From the NCBI RefSeq assembly GCF_019798055.1, contig NZ_JAHOPH010000028.1, positions 1 to 49,081 on the forward strand: a stretch of 49,081 nt of DNA, written 5' to 3'. The translations under genes and the position numbers were made by a program. The notes below the pieces were generated by a model that worked only from the letters and a program-made list of their open reading frames with translations, did no database searches and was not told the origin of the DNA. Shown one piece after another: positions 37,068-48,063 of this stretch (positions within the stretch are counted from its first letter, which is position 1; each line of letters starts with the position of its first letter). Source of the DNA: Salsipaludibacter albus. GTDB lineage: Bacteria; Actinomycetota; Nitriliruptoria; Nitriliruptorales; Nitriliruptoraceae.

Positions 37068-39308
37068 GTGACTGACACGACGACCACCGACACGACCGAC
37101 ACCGACACCATCGCAGACCCCGAGGCCACGCCCGACAAGCCCAAGCCCCTGTTCACCGACTTCGGCGTGGACCAGGACCTGGCCGACGCCCTGCGGGAAC
37201 GCGGCATCGTCCACCCCTTCGCCATCCAGGAGCTCAGCCTCCCGCTCGGGCTGAAGGGCCACGACATCATCGGGCAGGCGCGGACCGGGACCGGCAAGAC
37301 GCTGGGCTTCGGACTGCCCCTGCTCCAGCGCATCGACCCGGACAAGGCCAAGACGCAGGCCCTGGTCATCGTCCCGACCCGGGAGCTGTGCATCCAGGTC
37401 GCCGACGACCTGACCGTGGGCAGCACCCGCGGCATCACCTCGATCGCCGTCTACGGCGGGGTCGGCTACGAGGAACAGATCGAGGCCCTGACCACCGGCG
37501 TCCACGTCGTCGTCGGTACCCCCGGTCGCACGCTGGACCACCTCGGCCGGGGCAACCTCGACGTCTCGCAGATCCACACCGTCGTCCTCGACGAGGCCGA
37601 CGAGATGCTCGACATGGGGTTCCTGCCCGACGTCGAGAAGCTGCTGGCCGACGTCCCGGTCGACCGCCAGACCCTGCTGTTCTCGGCCACCATGCCGACC
37701 GCCATCGTCAAGCTGGCACGTCGGTTCATGGAGAAGCCGACCTTCATGCGGGCCGACGAGACCCTCCACGAGACCGCCCCGACCGTGGACCAGCACTTCT
37801 TCCTGGTCCACCGCATGGACAAGCCCCGCGTGCTCGCCCGGCTCCTGCAGATGCCCGGACGTGGCGGCGCCTTCGTGTTCTGCCGCACCAAGCGGATGTG
37901 TGACCGGCTGGTCCGTGAGCTCGAGCCCCTGGGCGTGCGCGCGATCGCGGTCCATGGCGACCTGCGCCAGTCCACGCGCGAGAAGAACCTGGACCAGTTC
38001 CGGGCCGGCAAGGCGGACGTGTTGGTGGCCACCGAGGTGGCCGCACGAGGGCTGGACGTCAGCAACGTCACCCACGTGATCAACTACGACTGCCCGGACG
38101 ACGAGAAGATGTACCTGCACCGGATCGGGCGCACCGCGCGGGCCGGCGAGTCCGGCGTCGCGGTGACCTTCGGCGAGTTCAACGAGGTCGACCGGGTCAA
38201 CGTGATCCGCAAGCGGGTCGGCGTGGAGGACGAGCTGACCGAGGTGTTCTCGACCTCGTCGCTGCTGACCGAACTGTTCGACCTCCCCGAGACCACGCCG
38301 TGGGACGACTTCGGCAAGTCCGACGACGGTGGGCGCGGCTCCCGTGGCAGCTCCGGTCGATCCGGCGGGAGCCGGAGCTCGTCGGGGGGCGGCACGGGCT
38401 CGTCGGGCGGCAAGGGCTCGTCGGGTGGCGGCAGGAGCTCGTCGCGTGGCGACGACCGGTCGTCGTCGCGCGGGAGCCGACGCTCGTCGGCCTCCTCGTC
38501 CGGGTCCAACCGGTCCAGTGGCCGCGGCAGTGATCGCCGCGGTGGCGAGGGTGACGAACACGAGCAGCGCCGCACCTCCGCCGACAGTGACTCGTCCCGG
38601 AGCCGGACCCGGACGCGCACCCGGTCCCGCGCGGGCAGCCGCACCGACCGCGACACGAACGGCTCGAGCCGTGAGTCGTCCAGCCGTGACTCGTCCAACC
38701 GTGACTCGTCGAGCCGTGACTCGTCGAGCCGTGACCGTCGCGACGCCGACAGCACGTCCAGCAGCCGCAACGGCGGGGGCTCGAACGGCCGTCGCACGGA
38801 CGACACCCGCGCACGCGGCGACCGCAAGGACTCGGGTCGCGGCGGTCGCGACCGCCGCACGGGCAACCGCAACGACGACGGCGGCAACGACGGTTCCACG
38901 GGCCGTTCGAAGGACGACGGCACAACCACGAGCCGTACGAACGAGTCCTCGGGCCGGACCACCGGCGGGGCACGCAAGCGCGCCCGTCGTGGCCGCCGCA
39001 GCCAGGACGAGCAGCGCGACGACGCGACGTCGTCGCGCGCGAGCTCGTCGACCGGCAGCGGCACGAGCCAACGTGACAGCGGGTCGACGTCGTCCGACGG
39101 CGGTGGAGCCTCCCGACGTGGCGGACGTGGTCGTGACGACCGGTCGCGCACCAGTCGTGGACGCAGCAGCGACGGCGATCGCTCGGGCCGCGGGTCGTCC
39201 AACGGACGCACCGACGAGAACGCCTCGACGACCCGACGTGGCAGCGATGCCCGCGGCTCCGGCACGCCTCGGCTGGACCGACGCGTCGACGTCGAGCACC
39301 TCCCCTAG
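37068..39308 (+). CDS. DEAD-box RNA helicase with long arginine/serine-rich tail
   Basis: A 746-residue ATP-dependent RNA helicase. The helicase core covers residues 28-400: Q-motif region IVHPFAIQE, motif I ARTGTGKT (71-78), Ia PTRELCIQ, DEAD (175-178), SAT, and motif VI HRIGRTARAG from residue 351. The remaining 330 residues are disordered and rich in Arg, Ser, Gly and Asp. They include a tandem run of S-S-R-D units around 540-565 and many RGG-like triplets. Such tails bind RNA and can drive condensates. GTG 37068 has AGGA about 10 bases upstream. It may remodel rRNA or mRNA under cold or stress, as CsdA/RhlE homologues do. Confidence 0.92.
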   Translation: MTDTTTTDTTDTDTIADPEATPDKPKPLFTDFGVDQDLADALRERGIVHPFAIQELSLPLGLKGHDIIGQARTGTGKTLGFGLPLLQRIDPDKAKTQALVIVPTRELCIQVADDLTVGSTRGITSIAVYGGVGYEEQIEALTTGVHVVVGTPGRTLDHLGRGNLDVSQIHTVVLDEADEMLDMGFLPDVEKLLADVPVDRQTLLFSATMPTAIVKLARRFMEKPTFMRADETLHETAPTVDQHFFLVHRMDKPRVLARLLQMPGRGGAFVFCRTKRMCDRLVRELEPLGVRAIAVHGDLRQSTREKNLDQFRAGKADVLVATEVAARGLDVSNVTHVINYDCPDDEKMYLHRIGRTARAGESGVAVTFGEFNEVDRVNVIRKRVGVEDELTEVFSTSSLLTELFDLPETTPWDDFGKSDDGGRGSRGSSGRSGGSRSSSGGGTGSSGGKGSSGGGRSSSRGDDRSSSRGSRRSSASSSGSNRSSGRGSDRRGGEGDEHEQRRTSADSDSSRSRTRTRTRSRAGSRTDRDTNGSSRESSSRDSSNRDSSSRDSSSRDRRDADSTSSSRNGGGSNGRRTDDTRARGDRKDSGRGGRDRRTGNRNDDGGNDGSTGRSKDDGTTTSRTNESSGRTTGGARKRARRGRRSQDEQRDDATSSRASSSTGSGTSQRDSGSTSSDGGGASRRGGRGRDDRSRTSRGRSSDGDRSGRGSSNGRTDENASTTRRGSDARGSGTPRLDRRVDVEHLP

Positions 39309-42222: not shown

Positions 42223-42810
42223 CTACAGGAGGCCGAGCTTCGCGGCCTCGGCGACGGCACCGGCACGGTTGCGGACGCCCAGCTTGTCGTACAGCTCCTG
42301 GGCGTAGGCCTTCACGGTCCGCTCGGTGACGCCGAGTTGGTCGCCGATCTCGGCGTTGGTCATGCCCTCGGCCATCAGCTCGAGCACCTGCTGCTGGCGT
42401 GGGGACAGGTGCGGACCGGTCTCGACCTTGGGCACCTCGAGCACCTCGGTCGTCTCCTCGCCCTTGGACGCAGCAGCCGGGTCCTCGAAGACGCCGACGA
42501 TCGGTCCGAACCCGACCTTGTCGCCGTGGTCGAGCACGGTGGGGCCGGAGATCTCCTCGTCGTTGACCGACGTGCCACCCGAGGATCCGAGGTCGGTGAT
42601 GATCACCGCACCCGCCTCCTTGCGCACGGTGGCGTGGACCCGGGAGATGCGCGGGTCGCTGATGACGTAGGCGTTGTCGGTCCGACGACCCAGCGTCGCC
42701 TCGTCCTGGTCCAGTCGGATCACCGTCCCCGCGAGCGGGCCGTCGCTGAAGTGGATCGTCGGTACGGGCACGATCTTGCTGGCCTTGCGCACCTCGGGCG
42801 TGTCGGACAC
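42223..42810 (-). CDS. FHA domain protein with LuxR-type helix-turn-helix
   Basis: A 195-residue protein. An FHA domain spans residues 20-105, with TLGRRTDNAYVISDPRISRVHATV carrying the conserved Arg and Ser/His positions split across two strands. A LuxR C-terminal DNA-binding domain follows at 130-195 (LSPRQQQVLELMAEGMTNAEI, then VTERTVKAY). FHA domains bind phosphothreonine, so DNA binding may be governed by a Ser/Thr kinase rather than by an aspartate receiver. GTG 42810 has GAGGAG six bases upstream. The HerA-like gene follows after 38 bases, so this protein may control the group downstream. Confidence 0.85.
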   Translation of the reverse strand: MSDTPEVRKASKIVPVPTIHFSDGPLAGTVIRLDQDEATLGRRTDNAYVISDPRISRVHATVRKEAGAVIITDLGSSGGTSVNDEEISGPTVLDHGDKVGFGPIVGVFEDPAAASKGEETTEVLEVPKVETGPHLSPRQQQVLELMAEGMTNAEIGDQLGVTERTVKAYAQELYDKLGVRNRAGAVAEAAKLGLL

Positions 42811-42992
42811 GGGCAACTCCTCGTTGCGAGTCGGGTCCACCGTGGACCCAGCACGTCGGCGACAACCCTACCGCTTGCCGGATCCCCGTCGGGACGGTTG
42901 GGCAGGGGGAGATCGGCCGGCATTTCGACCCGTCCTCGGGGAGCTGGACGCCCGGCATTCCTATGCTGGTGTGCGACGACGGAGGTGCGACC

Positions 42993-45182
42993 ATGATCGG
43001 CGGCGGCCCGGTCGACGTGGCCTCCTGGATCGCGCACGCGGGGGCGGCGGCCGCGCTGCGGGTCGTCACGCTCACCGGTGTCGCCATGCTCGTGGCCACG
43101 GGTGGGGCCCAGGCCCAGCCCGCCGACTCGTCGGAGTCCACGGCTGCCCCTTCCCCGTCCCCGTCCTCCTCCCCCGACGCGTCCGGGTCCCCCGGGCAGG
43201 AGCCACGGACGATCCGCATGGCCCGCGCGACGTGGGACACGGGGTGGTTCCAGGCCGAGGTCCACCGCCAGTTGTTGATGGAGCTGGGGTACCTGGTCGA
43301 GGGCCCGCGGACGATGTCCAACGAGGAGTTCTTCACCGCCGTCGCGTCCGGAGACGTCGACCTGTGGGCCAACGGGTGGTTCCCCCTGCACCAGCCCCTG
43401 CTCACCGACGGGGCGACGCCCGTCGGGGTCCAGGTCGAGTCCGGCGCCCTGCAGGGGTACTTCGTGGACCTCGCGACCGCCGTCGAGCACGACATCACCG
43501 AGCTGGCCGACCTGGCCGACCCCGAGGTCGCCGCGCTGTTCGACGACGACGGCAACGGACGTGCCGACCTGGTCGGCTGCAACCTCGCCTGGGCGTGCGG
43601 ACCGGTGGTCGACCACCACCTCGCCGTGTTCGGGCTGGCCGACACCGTCGAGCAGGTCCAGGCCGACTACTCGCCGCTGATGCTGGACGCCGTGGACCGG
43701 GTCGCCGCCGGCGAGCCGGTGCTGTACTACACCTTCACGCCCAACTGGACCGTGGGCGAGCTGGTGCCGGGGCGCGACGTGCGTTGGCTGCAGACCCCCG
43801 GCGCCAGCCTGCCGGACCAACCGGACCTGCCCGACGACGTCACGAGGGTGGCCGGCCTGGCGGGCTGCCCCGACGACCCGTGCCAGACCGGCTGGCCGCC
43901 CAACGACATCCGGGCCGTGGCCAACGAGGGGTTCCTCGACGACAACCCGCCGGTGCGCAGGCTGCTCGAACAGGTCACGATCCCGCTGGACGACATCCTC
44001 GACCAGAACGCCCGGATGATCGAGGGCGAGGGCAGCCCGGCCGACATCCGGGCGGCGGCCACGTCGTGGATCCGCGACAACCGGTCCACGGTCGACGACT
44101 GGGTGTCGGCTGCCGACCCGGACGCCGTGCCCGTCACGGAGGAGCAGGCTGCCGGCACGGAACGCGGCGAGCTCCTGCGCGTCTCGGTGCGCACCCTCGA
44201 GCCGTTCGTGCTCTACGAGAACCGGGTCTACACCGGCTACTCGGTCGAGCTCGCGGAGCAGCTCGCCAGCCGGATGGGGCGCGAGGTCGAGATCCTGGCG
44301 GTCAACTCGATCGCCAAGCAGCTGGACGACCTCGACCGTGAGGCCGCCGACATCGCCCTGGCGGGCCTGAGCATCACCGCCGAGCGCGAGCTCGACAACG
44401 ACTTCTCGCTGCCGGTGTTCCAGTCGGGACTGACGATCCTCGTCCCCACGGCCAGCCAGACGGGGTTCCTCGGTCGTGCAGGCACGATCGCGCGGTCGAT
44501 CCTGCGCCCGACCCTCCTGTGGTGGATCCTGGGCTTCGGACTGGTGCTGTTGATGGCGGCCCACCTGATCTGGTGGTTCGAGCGTCGGGACAACCCGGAC
44601 TTCCCCGAGACCTACCGCCGTGGCATCTGGGACTCGTTCTGGTGGTCGGCCGTGACCATCACGACGGTCGGCTACGGCGACAAGGCACCGACTGGCAACG
44701 CCGGTCGTTCCTTCGCCCTGCTGTGGATGATCGCCGGCTACTTCGTGTTCGCGTCGTTCACGGCCTCGATCACCTCGACGCTGGCGATCAGCGAGCTGCG
44801 TGGCACGATCGCCGGGCCGTCGGACCTGCCGGGACACACGGTGGCCACGGTCGCCGACACCGAGGCCGAGCGCTGGCTGATCCAGGAGGGCGTCGGGCCG
44901 GTCCCCCATCCGGACATCGACGCCGCGTACGCGGCGCTGGACAGCGGGGACGCCGACGCCGTGGTGTTCGACGCCCCCGTGCTGCAGTACCACGCGGCCC
45001 GCGAGGGAGCGGGCCGGGTGCGCACCGTCGGCCCGGTGTTCGACGAGGTGCGCTACGGCGTCGCGTTGCGCAACGGCGACAACGAGTTGCGCGAGCAGGT
45101 CAACCTCGCACTGCTCGACATGATCGAGAGCGGGGCCTACGAGCAGCTGCGGGAGCGGTGGTTCGGCGCGTTCGACGACTAG
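42993..45182 (+). CDS. Glycine-betaine-binding domain fused to a GluR0-like ligand-gated K+ channel
   Basis: A 729-residue exported/membrane protein. Order: signal or anchor helix (15-48); serine/proline linker; ProX/OpuAC-type binding domain (about 74-375) with RATWDTGW, DLWANGW and TPNWTVGELVPG; family-3 amino-acid-binding lobe 1 (392-490); TM1 (about 505-530); pore helix and selectivity filter TTVGYGD (557-563); TM2 (about 570-595); lobe 2 (602-727). The split lobes around a two-helix K+ pore define prokaryotic glutamate receptors such as GluR0. Ligand residues look intact: Arg465 in ITAERE and Asp660 in VVFDAP. GGAGG seven bases before ATG 42993 fixes the start; a TATGCT box lies at 42962. 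The extra domain closely resembles the neighbouring lipoprotein. Confidence 0.9.
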   Translation: MIGGGPVDVASWIAHAGAAAALRVVTLTGVAMLVATGGAQAQPADSSESTAAPSPSPSSSPDASGSPGQEPRTIRMARATWDTGWFQAEVHRQLLMELGYLVEGPRTMSNEEFFTAVASGDVDLWANGWFPLHQPLLTDGATPVGVQVESGALQGYFVDLATAVEHDITELADLADPEVAALFDDDGNGRADLVGCNLAWACGPVVDHHLAVFGLADTVEQVQADYSPLMLDAVDRVAAGEPVLYYTFTPNWTVGELVPGRDVRWLQTPGASLPDQPDLPDDVTRVAGLAGCPDDPCQTGWPPNDIRAVANEGFLDDNPPVRRLLEQVTIPLDDILDQNARMIEGEGSPADIRAAATSWIRDNRSTVDDWVSAADPDAVPVTEEQAAGTERGELLRVSVRTLEPFVLYENRVYTGYSVELAEQLASRMGREVEILAVNSIAKQLDDLDREAADIALAGLSITAERELDNDFSLPVFQSGLTILVPTASQTGFLGRAGTIARSILRPTLLWWILGFGLVLLMAAHLIWWFERRDNPDFPETYRRGIWDSFWWSAVTITTVGYGDKAPTGNAGRSFALLWMIAGYFVFASFTASITSTLAISELRGTIAGPSDLPGHTVATVADTEAERWLIQEGVGPVPHPDIDAAYAALDSGDADAVVFDAPVLQYHAAREGAGRVRTVGPVFDEVRYGVALRNGDNELREQVNLALLDMIESGAYEQLRERWFGAFDD

Positions 45183-46270
45183 CTCCGGGCGGCCTCGAGC
45201 CAGCTGTCCACGGCGTCACGGTTGTCGCTGATCCAGGTCTCGGCCGCCGCCTCGAGGTCCTCGGTCGTGTACTCGGCTGCCTGGTACATCTCGTCGTTCT
45301 GTGCTGCGATGTCGTCCAACGGGATCTGGACCTCCTCCAGCAGGGCACGCACGTCGGGGTGCTCGTCCAGGAAGTCGGTGTTGGCCGCGACCTGGATGTC
45401 GTTGATCTGCCAGCCGAGGTCGCACGGGTCGGCGTCGCCGGCACAGCCCTCCAGGCCCTCGACCTCGGTCTGGTCGACGTCGGGCAGGGACGGGGACTCC
45501 AGCCACACGACGTCCTCGCCCGGCACCAGCTCGGCGACCGTCCAGTTGGGCGTCCAGGTGTAGAACAGCGTGGGCTCGCCGGCCTCGACGTCGGCGATGG
45601 CCTGCTCGAACAGGTCGGGGTAGTCCCCCACGACCTGTTCCACGTTGGCGCCCCAGTCCAGCTGCTCGAGGTGTTCGCTGATGGTGAGGTTGCAGCCCCA
45701 GCCGTCGTTGCAGCCGAGCAGGTCGGCCAGGCCGTCGCCGTCGTCGTCGAAGGTCTCGGCCACGGACGCGTCGGCGAGGTCCGACATCGACGTCAGGCCC
45801 AGCTCGTCGGCCGTCGCGGCGTCGACCAGGTAGCCCTGGCGGGCGCCGTCGGCGACCTGCTGGCCGACGAAGGTGATCGCCGTGTCGTAGGTCGCTCCGG
45901 TGAACAACTCGCCCTCGAGGTAGGGCTCGTGCAACGGCGACCAGCCGTTGGCCCACAGGTCGAACTCGCCACGCGCCAGCGCCGGGTAGAAGCCGTTGGC
46001 GTCTCGCGTGGCGTCCGCGGGATCGGACACCTCGTAGCCCAGCTCGCCCAGCAGCTGGCGGTACACCTCGGCCTGGAACCAGCCGGTGTCCCACGTGGCC
46101 CGGGCCATGGTGACGGCCTCGCCGCCACCACCGTCGCCGCCGGCCGGACCCCCGTCACCGCCGGTCGCGGTGGGATCCGAGCAGGCCGCCAGCGCCAGGG
46201 CCAGCACGACCAGCACGATGGCCGGGACGCGGTTCACCGGCCGAGAGGCCGCGCGGTCGTTGCGGGTCAT
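45179..46270 (-). CDS. Glycine betaine/choline-type substrate-binding lipoprotein (ProX/OpuAC)
   Basis: A 363-residue lipoprotein. The signal peptide ends in LALAAC with Cys30 lipidated, followed by a glycine-rich spacer. The type-II binding fold carries tryptophans typical of quaternary-ammonium cages: WDTGWFQAEV, DLWANGWSPLH and TPNWTVAEL. Cysteines in GCNDGWGC and GCAGDADPC probably form disulfides. It starts within the stop of the BCCT carrier gene (ATGA), so it is co-translated with it. No ABC permease or ATPase is adjacent. Its stop codon lies in a CTAG shared with the convergent channel gene. It is the evident relative of the channel's N-terminal domain. Confidence 0.88.
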   Translation of the reverse strand: MTRNDRAASRPVNRVPAIVLVVLALALAACSDPTATGGDGGPAGGDGGGGEAVTMARATWDTGWFQAEVYRQLLGELGYEVSDPADATRDANGFYPALARGEFDLWANGWSPLHEPYLEGELFTGATYDTAITFVGQQVADGARQGYLVDAATADELGLTSMSDLADASVAETFDDDGDGLADLLGCNDGWGCNLTISEHLEQLDWGANVEQVVGDYPDLFEQAIADVEAGEPTLFYTWTPNWTVAELVPGEDVVWLESPSLPDVDQTEVEGLEGCAGDADPCDLGWQINDIQVAANTDFLDEHPDVRALLEEVQIPLDDIAAQNDEMYQAAEYTTEDLEAAAETWISDNRDAVDSWLEAARS

Positions 46271-48063
46271 GACGACCCCCCTTCCTGTGGTGCGACCGCC
46301 TCGCCACGGCGCCGCCGTCCCGCCCCGATGCGTTCGAGCAGGGTGCCGTGCTGGGCCCGGAACTCGGCTGCGTCGTAGTGGCCCTCCAGCAGGTCCAGCT
46401 CCTCGTGGAAGGCCGTGCGCAGACTCCAGATCATCACCAGCAGGACGATCGCGAAGGGCAGTCCGGTGGCCACGGCCGCCGTCTGCAGGGCCGACAGCCC
46501 ACCACCGATCAGCAGCACGGCGGCGATCGTGCCCTCCATGACCGCCCAGAAGATGCGTTGCGGCTTGGGCGAGTCGAGCTTGCCACCCGAGGTGAGGTGG
46601 TCGACCACCAGGGACCCGGAGTCCGACGAGGTCACGAAGAACCCGACGACCAGGATCACCGCGAAGATCGAGGTGATCGTCGACAGCGGGAGTGCCTGGA
46701 ACATGTCGAACATCGCGGTCGCGACGTCCTCGTTGACCGCGGTGGCGACGTCACGGGCCCCGGTCAGCTGGAGGTTGAGGGCGGTGCCACCGAAGATCGC
46801 CATCCAGAAGAACGACAGGAGCGAGGGCACGATCATCACGCCCAGGATGAGCTCGCGGACCGAGCGGCCTTTGGAGACGCGGGCGATGAACATCCCCACG
46901 AACGGGGACCACGAGATCCACCACCCCCAGTAGAAGACCGTCCACGACCCCTGCCAGTCCGTCCCGCTGAAGGCCTCGTTGTAGAACGACAACTCGGGCA
47001 GGACGAACACGTAGGTGCCCAACGACTCGACGAACACCGACAGCAGGAACAGGGTCGGGCCGACGATGATCATGAACAGCAGGAAGGCCCCGGCCAGCCC
47101 CATGTTGAGCTGGCTGAGCCGTTTCACGCCGCCGTCGAGTCCGGCGACGACCGACATCGTGGCCATCCCGGTGATGATCGCGATCAACAGGACCTGGAAC
47201 GGGGTGCCGGAGGGCCAGCCGAACAGGTAGTTCAGCCCGGCCGCCGCCTGCCCCACGCCGAAGCCCAGCGATGTCGCCAACCCGAACAGGGTCGCCAGCA
47301 CGGTCAGGACGTCGATCAGGTTGCCCCAGTTGCCGTAGATCTTCTTTCCCAGCAAGGGGTAGAACACCGACCGGAAGGTCAGCGGCAGGCCACGGTTGTA
47401 GGCGAAGAAGGCCAGCGCCAGGCTGACCAGGGCATAGATCCCCCACGGGTGGATGCCCCAGTGGAAGTAGGTCGTCGCCAGGGCGGCGCTGGCGGCCTGC
47501 CCGGTGTTGGGATCCACGTTGAACAGTGGCGGTGGAGCCGACAGGTGGAAGATCGGCTCGGCCACCGACCAGAACATCAGGCCGATTCCCATCCCGGCCG
47601 ACAGCAGCATGGCGTACCAGGCGACGTTGGTGAACTCCGGCTTGGCCTCCGGGCCACCGATGCGGATCTTGCCGTAGCGACTGAAGGCGAAGAACAGGCA
47701 GGCCAGCACGAAGATGTTGGCGGACAGGATGTAGAACCAGCCGAAGCTGTCGTTGACGAACGCCAGGATGGACTCGAACACCGCCGACGCCTGCTCCTGG
47801 AAGATCAGGGTGTAGGCGATGAAGACGACCAGGAAGCCAGCAGCCCAGAAGGTGACCTGCGGGTGCAGGTCGAACCCGTACTTCTCGATGTTGGTGTCGC
47901 CGGGCTCCCGGTCGGCGACCTCCGGGTAGAAGTCCACGTCGGGGTCGATCTGCAGGCCCTCGAACCGCCGCCGGTTGTACACGGCGTGGCGACGCTCCTC
48001 GTGCTCCTCGTGCTCGTACTCCTCGTAGGCCTGTTCCACCTCGGTCAGGTCGCGCTTGGCCAT
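46267..48063 (-). CDS. BCCT family betaine/choline carrier
   Basis: A 598-residue secondary transporter with twelve predicted helices. The sodium-site helix reads AGMGIGLMFWSVAEPIFH, and the substrate helix 8 YWGWWISWSPFVGMFIARVSKG with its aromatic box is almost that of BetP, each split here by short loops. The GMGIG pattern points to sodium coupling. A 65-residue acidic N-terminal tail (EVEQAYEEYEHEEHEE) and a basic C-terminal tail recall BetP, where the tails sense osmotic stress. GGGAGGG eight bases before ATG 48063 sets the start. The downstream ProX-like lipoprotein overlaps its stop, an unusual pairing for a carrier that needs no binding protein. Confidence 0.92.
   Translation of the reverse strand: MAKRDLTEVEQAYEEYEHEEHEERRHAVYNRRRFEGLQIDPDVDFYPEVADREPGDTNIEKYGFDLHPQVTFWAAGFLVVFIAYTLIFQEQASAVFESILAFVNDSFGWFYILSANIFVLACLFFAFSRYGKIRIGGPEAKPEFTNVAWYAMLLSAGMGIGLMFWSVAEPIFHLSAPPPLFNVDPNTGQAASAALATTYFHWGIHPWGIYALVSLALAFFAYNRGLPLTFRSVFYPLLGKKIYGNWGNLIDVLTVLATLFGLATSLGFGVGQAAAGLNYLFGWPSGTPFQVLLIAIITGMATMSVVAGLDGGVKRLSQLNMGLAGAFLLFMIIVGPTLFLLSVFVESLGTYVFVLPELSFYNEAFSGTDWQGSWTVFYWGWWISWSPFVGMFIARVSKGRSVRELILGVMIVPSLLSFFWMAIFGGTALNLQLTGARDVATAVNEDVATAMFDMFQALPLSTITSIFAVILVVGFFVTSSDSGSLVVDHLTSGGKLDSPKPQRIFWAVMEGTIAAVLLIGGGLSALQTAAVATGLPFAIVLLVMIWSLRTAFHEELDLLEGHYDAAEFRAQHGTLLERIGAGRRRRGEAVAPQEGGSS

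Follow-up and report, generated by a model that had tools for sequence, protein, structure and literature searches.

In the window, the whole stretch of 49,081 nucleotides of Salsipaludibacter albus DNA analyzed here, we identified a gene on the forward strand (42993..45182; open reading frame and profile searches) for a 729-residue protein that joins a ProX-type binding domain to a GluR0-type K+ channel. The order of its parts was confirmed as a probable signal peptide, a complete ProX-type domain and a GluR0-type channel (S1-TM1-pore-TM2-S2). We give roughly even chances to the reading that this protein is a K+-selective GluR0-type channel with outside sensors for a betaine-type ligand and for an amino acid, working together with a BCCT-family transporter and a free ProX protein; through this channel, cells can probably exchange their potassium for betaine. 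What was observed in the fusions comprises the architecture itself, conserved binding residues and a conserved gene neighbourhood.

Domain architecture and structure model

The reading frame starts with ATG at 42993 and stays open for 729 codons, and a Shine-Dalgarno-like GGAGGT lies ahead of it in the sequence (42981..42986); this motif and all parts of the gene given below are on the forward strand. Residues 1-42 (42993..43118), which end in GGAQAQ, were read from the sequence as a probable Sec signal peptide, whose helix (residues 9-26) is predicted with low confidence in the AlphaFold model. The ProX/OpuAC domain (residues 73-374; 43209..44114) was recognized by Pfam, NCBIfam, PDB sequence match and structure match. 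A short linker to S1 follows (residues 375-393; 44115..44171; alignment and model), in which residues 388-390 have pLDDT values under 50 in the AlphaFold model; across the aligned fusions, this linker measures 18-41 residues.

The channel part begins with the S1 half of a family-3 domain (residues 394-487, including Thr462 and Arg465; 44172..44453; Pfam and structure). It continues through TM1 (helix 506-530; 44508..44582; model), a pore helix with the K+ selectivity filter TTVGYGD (residues 541-563; 44613..44681; Pfam, alignment and model) and TM2 (helix 569-603; 44697..44801; alignment and model), which carries the gate-like conserved stretch SFTASITSTLA. The S2 half completes the family-3 domain (residues 604-725, including Asp660; 44802..45167; Pfam, alignment and structure). 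Within the pore segment, the filter itself corresponds to residues 557-563 and the pore helix of the model to residues 541-557. No transmembrane helix after S2 (M4) was present in the model, and the protein ends five residues past the last S2 helix.

Pfam searches matched OpuAC at residues 73-361 (E 3e-41; PF04069, 142.2 bits against a cut-off of 21.2), SBP_bac_3 at 399-725, interrupted by the pore (E 3e-28), Ion_trans_2 at 542-597 (E 1.5e-14) and Lig_chan at 511-616 (E 3.4e-12), each of these matches scoring well above its curated cut-off. Residues 66-375 were assigned by NCBIfam to the ProX equivalog (PRK11119; 318.7 bits against a cut-off of 215), and both NCBIfam and PDB place the N-terminal domain specifically with E. 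coli ProX. The PDB sequence matches are 1r9l (E. coli ProX with betaine) for the N-terminal part and 2pyy (the ligand core of a GluR0-like protein from Nostoc) for the C-terminal part. The AlphaFold model, for which 45 fusions were aligned (mean pLDDT 81.7), superposes on 1r9l over 300 residues at 1.8 A (Z 37.7, 36% identity), on 2pyy over 212 residues at 2.4 A (Z 28.4) and on 1ii5 over 216 residues at 2.3 A (Z 26.3); AMPA receptors were also matched by the ligand-binding and pore part (Foldseek). Because the placement of the domains relative to each other is uncertain in this model (pTM 0.58), we offer it as a proposal that the ProX domain is coupled to the gate. An earlier note, made from the DNA letters, had described a ProX/OpuAC domain followed by a split family-3 domain, TM1, TTVGYGD and TM2; the borders of about 73-375, the OpuAC fold of the N-terminal part and the glycine-tyrosine-glycine filter of the window protein all agree with that description.

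Conservation of the ligand sites and the filter

The betaine site of this binding-protein fold consists of a Trp prism plus a His (PMC2861598). In the window protein, W129, H133, W200 and F248 correspond to W65, H69, W140 and W188 of E. coli ProX, with Phe248 taking the position of the third cage Trp. At the W65 position, all 54 fusion letters are Trp, and the W140 position holds Trp in all 55 fusions. An aromatic residue (Trp, Phe or Tyr) occupies the W188 position in 55/55, Trp being found in 47, and the His69 position is His in 47/54 and replaced in 7/54. The disulphide pair of E. coli ProX, Cys136/Cys142, is kept as Cys196/Cys202 in 55 of 55 fusions.

In the family-3 domain, Thr462 and Arg465 are present in all 55 fusions and Asp660 in 52 of 54 (alignment), the positions by which family-3 proteins bind the alpha-carboxylate and the alpha-amino group. 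The mean column identity of the whole fusion alignment is 59%, so conservation at both ligand sites is far stricter than elsewhere. Judged by these residues, both the aromatic cage for betaine and the Arg and Asp of the family-3 site are preserved.

The GYG filter is kept in 52 of 55 fusions, with GSG in one frameshifted row and GAG in two Jiangellaceae. In the latter two fusions (L035, 5743-7941; L054, 6110-7999), PFGAGNN replaces VGYGD, and K+ selectivity may therefore be lost there.

Distribution and origin of the fusion

A scan of bacterial genomes detected the complete fusion in more than 50 other genomes of at least six phyla, and the homologues are 41-61% identical to the window protein. 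The hosts belong to Acidimicrobiia, Nitriliruptoria, Jiangellaceae, Cyanobacteria, Deltaproteobacteria, Chloroflexi, Bacteroidetes and Kiritimatiellae. Three of them are isolates, namely Haloactinopolyspora alba, Halomicronema sp. CCY15110 and Phytoactinopolyspora endophytica; the copy of P. endophytica is frameshifted. Many record names hint at saline or marine sources (such as an Olavius worm symbiont and halophile genera), and from such names we infer that the hosts are often salt-water bacteria. In the order of the window genome, the fusion was found in that genome only (1/36), and two further fusions occur within its class. GluR0-type channels were detected in 69 of 386 genomes of Cyanobacteria (E < 1e-25), where only two of the best approximately 30 channels from these 69 genomes have the ProX part, and in 26 of 296 genomes of Acidimicrobiia, where they are mostly fusions.

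Since the same fusion recurs in more than 50 other genomes, it is neither a chance event nor a misassembly, and the earlier reading of the window gene as a genuine fusion is upheld. That it might be a misassembled or decayed product has a negligible probability: frameshifted single copies do exist (L050, L054 and L058, the L054 frameshift lying in the ProX part), whereas the more than 50 other copies come from independent assemblies, three isolates among them, and retain the functional residues. The split at L058 was also considered as a natural two-gene version and rejected, the two frames sharing a short overlap of a few codons in an A-rich stretch; it would most simply be a frameshift.

A tree built from the channel part gathers the fusions into a single group that lies among ProX-less GluR0-type channels, with three changes of label (one of them the frameshifted L058) where shuffling would lead one to expect 23.9. 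One ProX-less cyanobacterial subgroup (L173-L177) falls inside the fusion group, and loss of the ProX domain is therefore suggested for it. Fused and free domains are nearly separate in the tree of the ProX part. There, a locus named as Nitriliruptoraceae (L083) and one from a genome of the window's family (L085) come together, which points to Nitriliruptoraceae as the probable family of the window genome. Both trees are quick ones in which long branches (such as L047) are unsurely placed, and the simplest reading of them would be one old fusion that has spread across phyla and been lost at least once. A recent duplication of the neighbouring proX gene as the source of the fused domain was rejected: fused and free ProX domains group apart in the tree. 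The free ProX next door, which shares 56% identity with the fused domain, is thus an older paralogue.

Gene neighbourhood and the BCCT partner

Two genes on the reverse strand adjoin the channel gene: one for a separate ProX-type binding protein with the lipobox LAAC (45179..46270) and one for a BCCT-family transporter (46267..48063), both identified by Pfam, NCBIfam and sequence. The channel gene and the separate ProX-type gene are convergent with overlapping stops (CTAG), and the BCCT stop overlaps the proX start (ATGA). The transporter scored over the cut-offs of PF02028 (634.8 bits) and TIGR00842 (511.5 bits). Betaine is its putative substrate, its score against the betaine-specific NF047988 (568) lying below the cut-off of 650; the betaine-type Trp box is retained (W202, W207, Y210, W379, W381, W382 and W385).

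A BCCT gene adjoins the fusion at 41 of 56 loci, and at 32 of the 39 loci where at least 3 kb is known on both sides. These loci usually also have a gene for a separate betaine-type binding protein, and the BCCT proteins retain the Trp-box residues. Seven gene orders of BCCT and fusion were distinguished. The divergent one was found at 24 loci and the convergent one of the window at three more; the others are BCCT-ProX-fusion (three), fusion-BCCT-SBP (two), fusion-SBP-BCCT (two), BCCT-fusion (two) and BCCT-SBP-fusion (two, plus the frameshifted L058). The third gene belongs to one of three OpuAC-family types, namely ProX and other types in Acidimicrobiales (c36) and Deltaproteobacteria (c38). 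In contrast to the fusions, none of the 20 ProX-less GluR0-type channels examined has a BCCT or OpuAC gene in the roughly 5 kb flanking it on either side; this control set is mostly cyanobacterial, with four actinobacterial members, and does not fully control for phylogeny. Adjacent BCCT genes are absent at 15 of 56 fusion loci (the cyanobacterial ones and several others), and a BCCT gene is encoded elsewhere in 11 of the 12 genomes searched, most of them genomes without adjacency. BCCT adjacency is thus the rule and not a local accident of the window. The osmotic context put forward in the earlier note has in fact turned out stronger than claimed there, with a BCCT gene and a free proX next door and this arrangement conserved across phyla.

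The same neighbourhood allows the channel to be read as a device of electrical compensation, its K+ efflux restoring the membrane potential used by cation-coupled BCCT betaine uptake. BCCT proteins are driven by proton or sodium motive force (PMC7876524), betaine sensing would match the two fluxes, and BCCT adjacency recurs in seven gene orders; some fusions nevertheless have no BCCT gene nearby, and we regard this reading as improbable.

Operons of a BCCT gene and a ProX-type gene were observed in the window (45179-48063) and at L073-L075, L079, L082, L083, L085 and L106-L108, and some of them stand where no fusion was found nearby. We know of no BCCT protein that uses a binding protein. The BCCT-ProX operon may therefore encode a binding-protein-assisted secondary betaine importer. 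In the window genome, contig C10 also carries a ProV gene and, together with it, one for an OpuAC protein (the ProV family search being unspecific below its cut-off), so the ProX beside the BCCT gene is an additional one; the idea that ProX in this genome lacks any ABC importer was rejected on the same grounds. A search of plasmids gave free ProX only. In Acidimicrobiia, tandem OpuAC domains were found in single frames of 750-950 codons (G1085:C63:2668-4560, G956:C89:21294-23186, G983:C31:34250-36136 and G1081:C1:72626-74512), which possibly encode double betaine-binding proteins.

Since free binding proteins are found in operon with BCCT genes even without a fusion, it is suggested that binding proteins can serve BCCT transporters. 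The fused ProX could by extension be a tethered binding protein feeding betaine to the BCCT protein, the channel part being no more than an anchor or a route for K+ uptake. Against this, the channel part (GYG, gate helix and Arg/Asp site) is conserved as well as the ProX part, and most actinobacterial fusion loci already have a free ProX; we consider such a role very improbable.

Other genes of the window include one at 42223-42840 on the reverse strand, divergent from the channel gene, whose product has an FHA domain and, after it, a DNA-binding domain of the LuxR type, and a DEAD-box helicase gene at 37068-39308 on the forward strand, whose product has a Ser-, Arg- and Gly-rich tail of approximately 300 residues. 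On the strand opposite the helicase gene, an 851-codon frame is open, probably as a result of base composition.

Comparison with known receptors and binding proteins

By its defining features, as far as these can be read from the sequence, the window protein is a GluR0-type channel whose N-terminal domain is ProX. GluR0 of Synechocystis and NpGluR of Nostoc, Group 1 of Ger et al. 2010 (PMC2950845), have a family-3 domain split in the same way, and they share with the fusion TM1, a K+ pore loop, TM2, the absence of a third transmembrane helix and the Arg and Asp of the amino-acid site. Known members of this type lack the N-terminal betaine domain that the fusion has, and the text of the survey of prokaryotic glutamate receptors, which covers 22 channels, names no such extra domain (PMC2950845). 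A combination of ProX with a GluR0-type channel was not found in the open literature that we searched, most subscription journals lying outside its scope, and within these bounds the earlier note's remark that no example had been described holds. The fused domain has the same fold, disulphide pair, His and aromatic cage as ProX of the E. coli ProU system (1r9l); E. coli ProX serves ProVW, whereas the window ProX domain is fused to a channel and has Phe in place of the third cage Trp.

Animal ionotropic glutamate receptors (AMPA, NMDA and delta) likewise have one more external domain that precedes the ligand-binding domain and the pore, and in the model the ligand-binding and pore parts have the same fold as theirs. 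Unlike the window protein, animal receptors have M4 and a non-K+ filter, and they carry an amino-terminal domain of the ANF_receptor/LIVBP class; without M4 and such a domain, the window protein is no receptor of the eukaryotic type. The suggested likeness between the two N-terminal domains stands as to position and fails as to fold: the window domain is ProX (1r9l), and a Pfam search of the window protein gave no ANF_receptor match to it, so homology with the animal amino-terminal domain was rejected. Nematode betaine-gated channels (e.g., DEG-3/DES-2; PMC9860315, PMC8747062) would be similar in being opened by betaine, should the proposed gating of the fusion hold, but they are animal Cys-loop pentamers and unrelated to it.

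Proposed function

The identities of the two ligands, a tetrameric assembly, gating by both ligands and the direction of the effect are what we infer for the window protein. GluR0 has both its N and C termini outside, conducts K+ and affects the cell volume of Synechocystis after KCl upshock (PMC13099474). Bacteria load K+ and glutamate first, and compatible solutes later replace both (PMC13099474; also PMC7876524); effluxed glutamate has been proposed by the GluR0 authors as the activator during this switch from K-glutamate to compatible solutes (PMC13099474). In the proposed mechanism, the protein would reside in the plasma membrane, with the ProX domain binding betaine-type quaternary amines and the family-3 domain around the pore binding a glutamate-like alpha-amino acid. 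Under salt stress, the cell would first load K+ and glutamate; once betaine is available outside, it would be taken up by the BCCT transporter, and the pore would open under the joint action of betaine bound to the ProX domain and glutamate on its way out of the cell. The exit of K+ would then balance the charge and the osmotic load brought by betaine. The fusion would supply a missing signal by reporting that a compatible solute is present outside, and K+ would leave as betaine replaces it.

The strictest form of this proposal is a coincidence detector whose K+ pore would stay shut unless an osmoprotectant and an amino acid from outside occupied their sites together, and which would act as a conserved unit with a BCCT importer that is itself served by a binding protein; we advance it tentatively, as a possibility well short of even chances. 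Several observations weigh against the proposed mechanism in general. Synechocystis GluR0 is a path of K+ influx under high KCl, and the direction of flux thus depends on conditions; 15 of 56 fusion loci have no adjacent BCCT gene, the window protein has Phe for the third cage Trp, His69 is replaced in 7 of 54 fusions, and two of 55 have GAG in the filter. The main rival reverses the sign, betaine closing the channel instead of opening it. The ProX domain would then be a modulator through which betaine stabilizes, closes or desensitizes an amino-acid-opened channel, K+ being retained until or while betaine is there. This accords with the N-terminal domains of animal receptors, which modulate but are not essential, the channel still responding when the domain is removed (PMC6385376). 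The sequence data fit either sign, and the linker of 18-41 residues leaves the direction unfixed; we judge the modulator reading unlikely, though it deserves to be kept in view.

If the coincidence detector is true, the fusion would be the first betaine-gated channel from a prokaryote, and a two-storey ligand-gated receptor would have been invented independently. A second binding-protein domain atop the ligand-binding domain, long thought to be confined to animals and plants, also occurs in bacteria with a different fold. Prokaryotic glutamate receptors have so far been known as single-sensor channels, whose role was unclear until the volume-control report of 2026 (PMC13099474). The fusion would offer a molecular answer to the question of how K+ release is coordinated with compatible-solute uptake, and a widespread betaine-sensor form that accompanies a betaine-type importer would give prokaryotic glutamate receptors a concrete job in osmotic adaptation.
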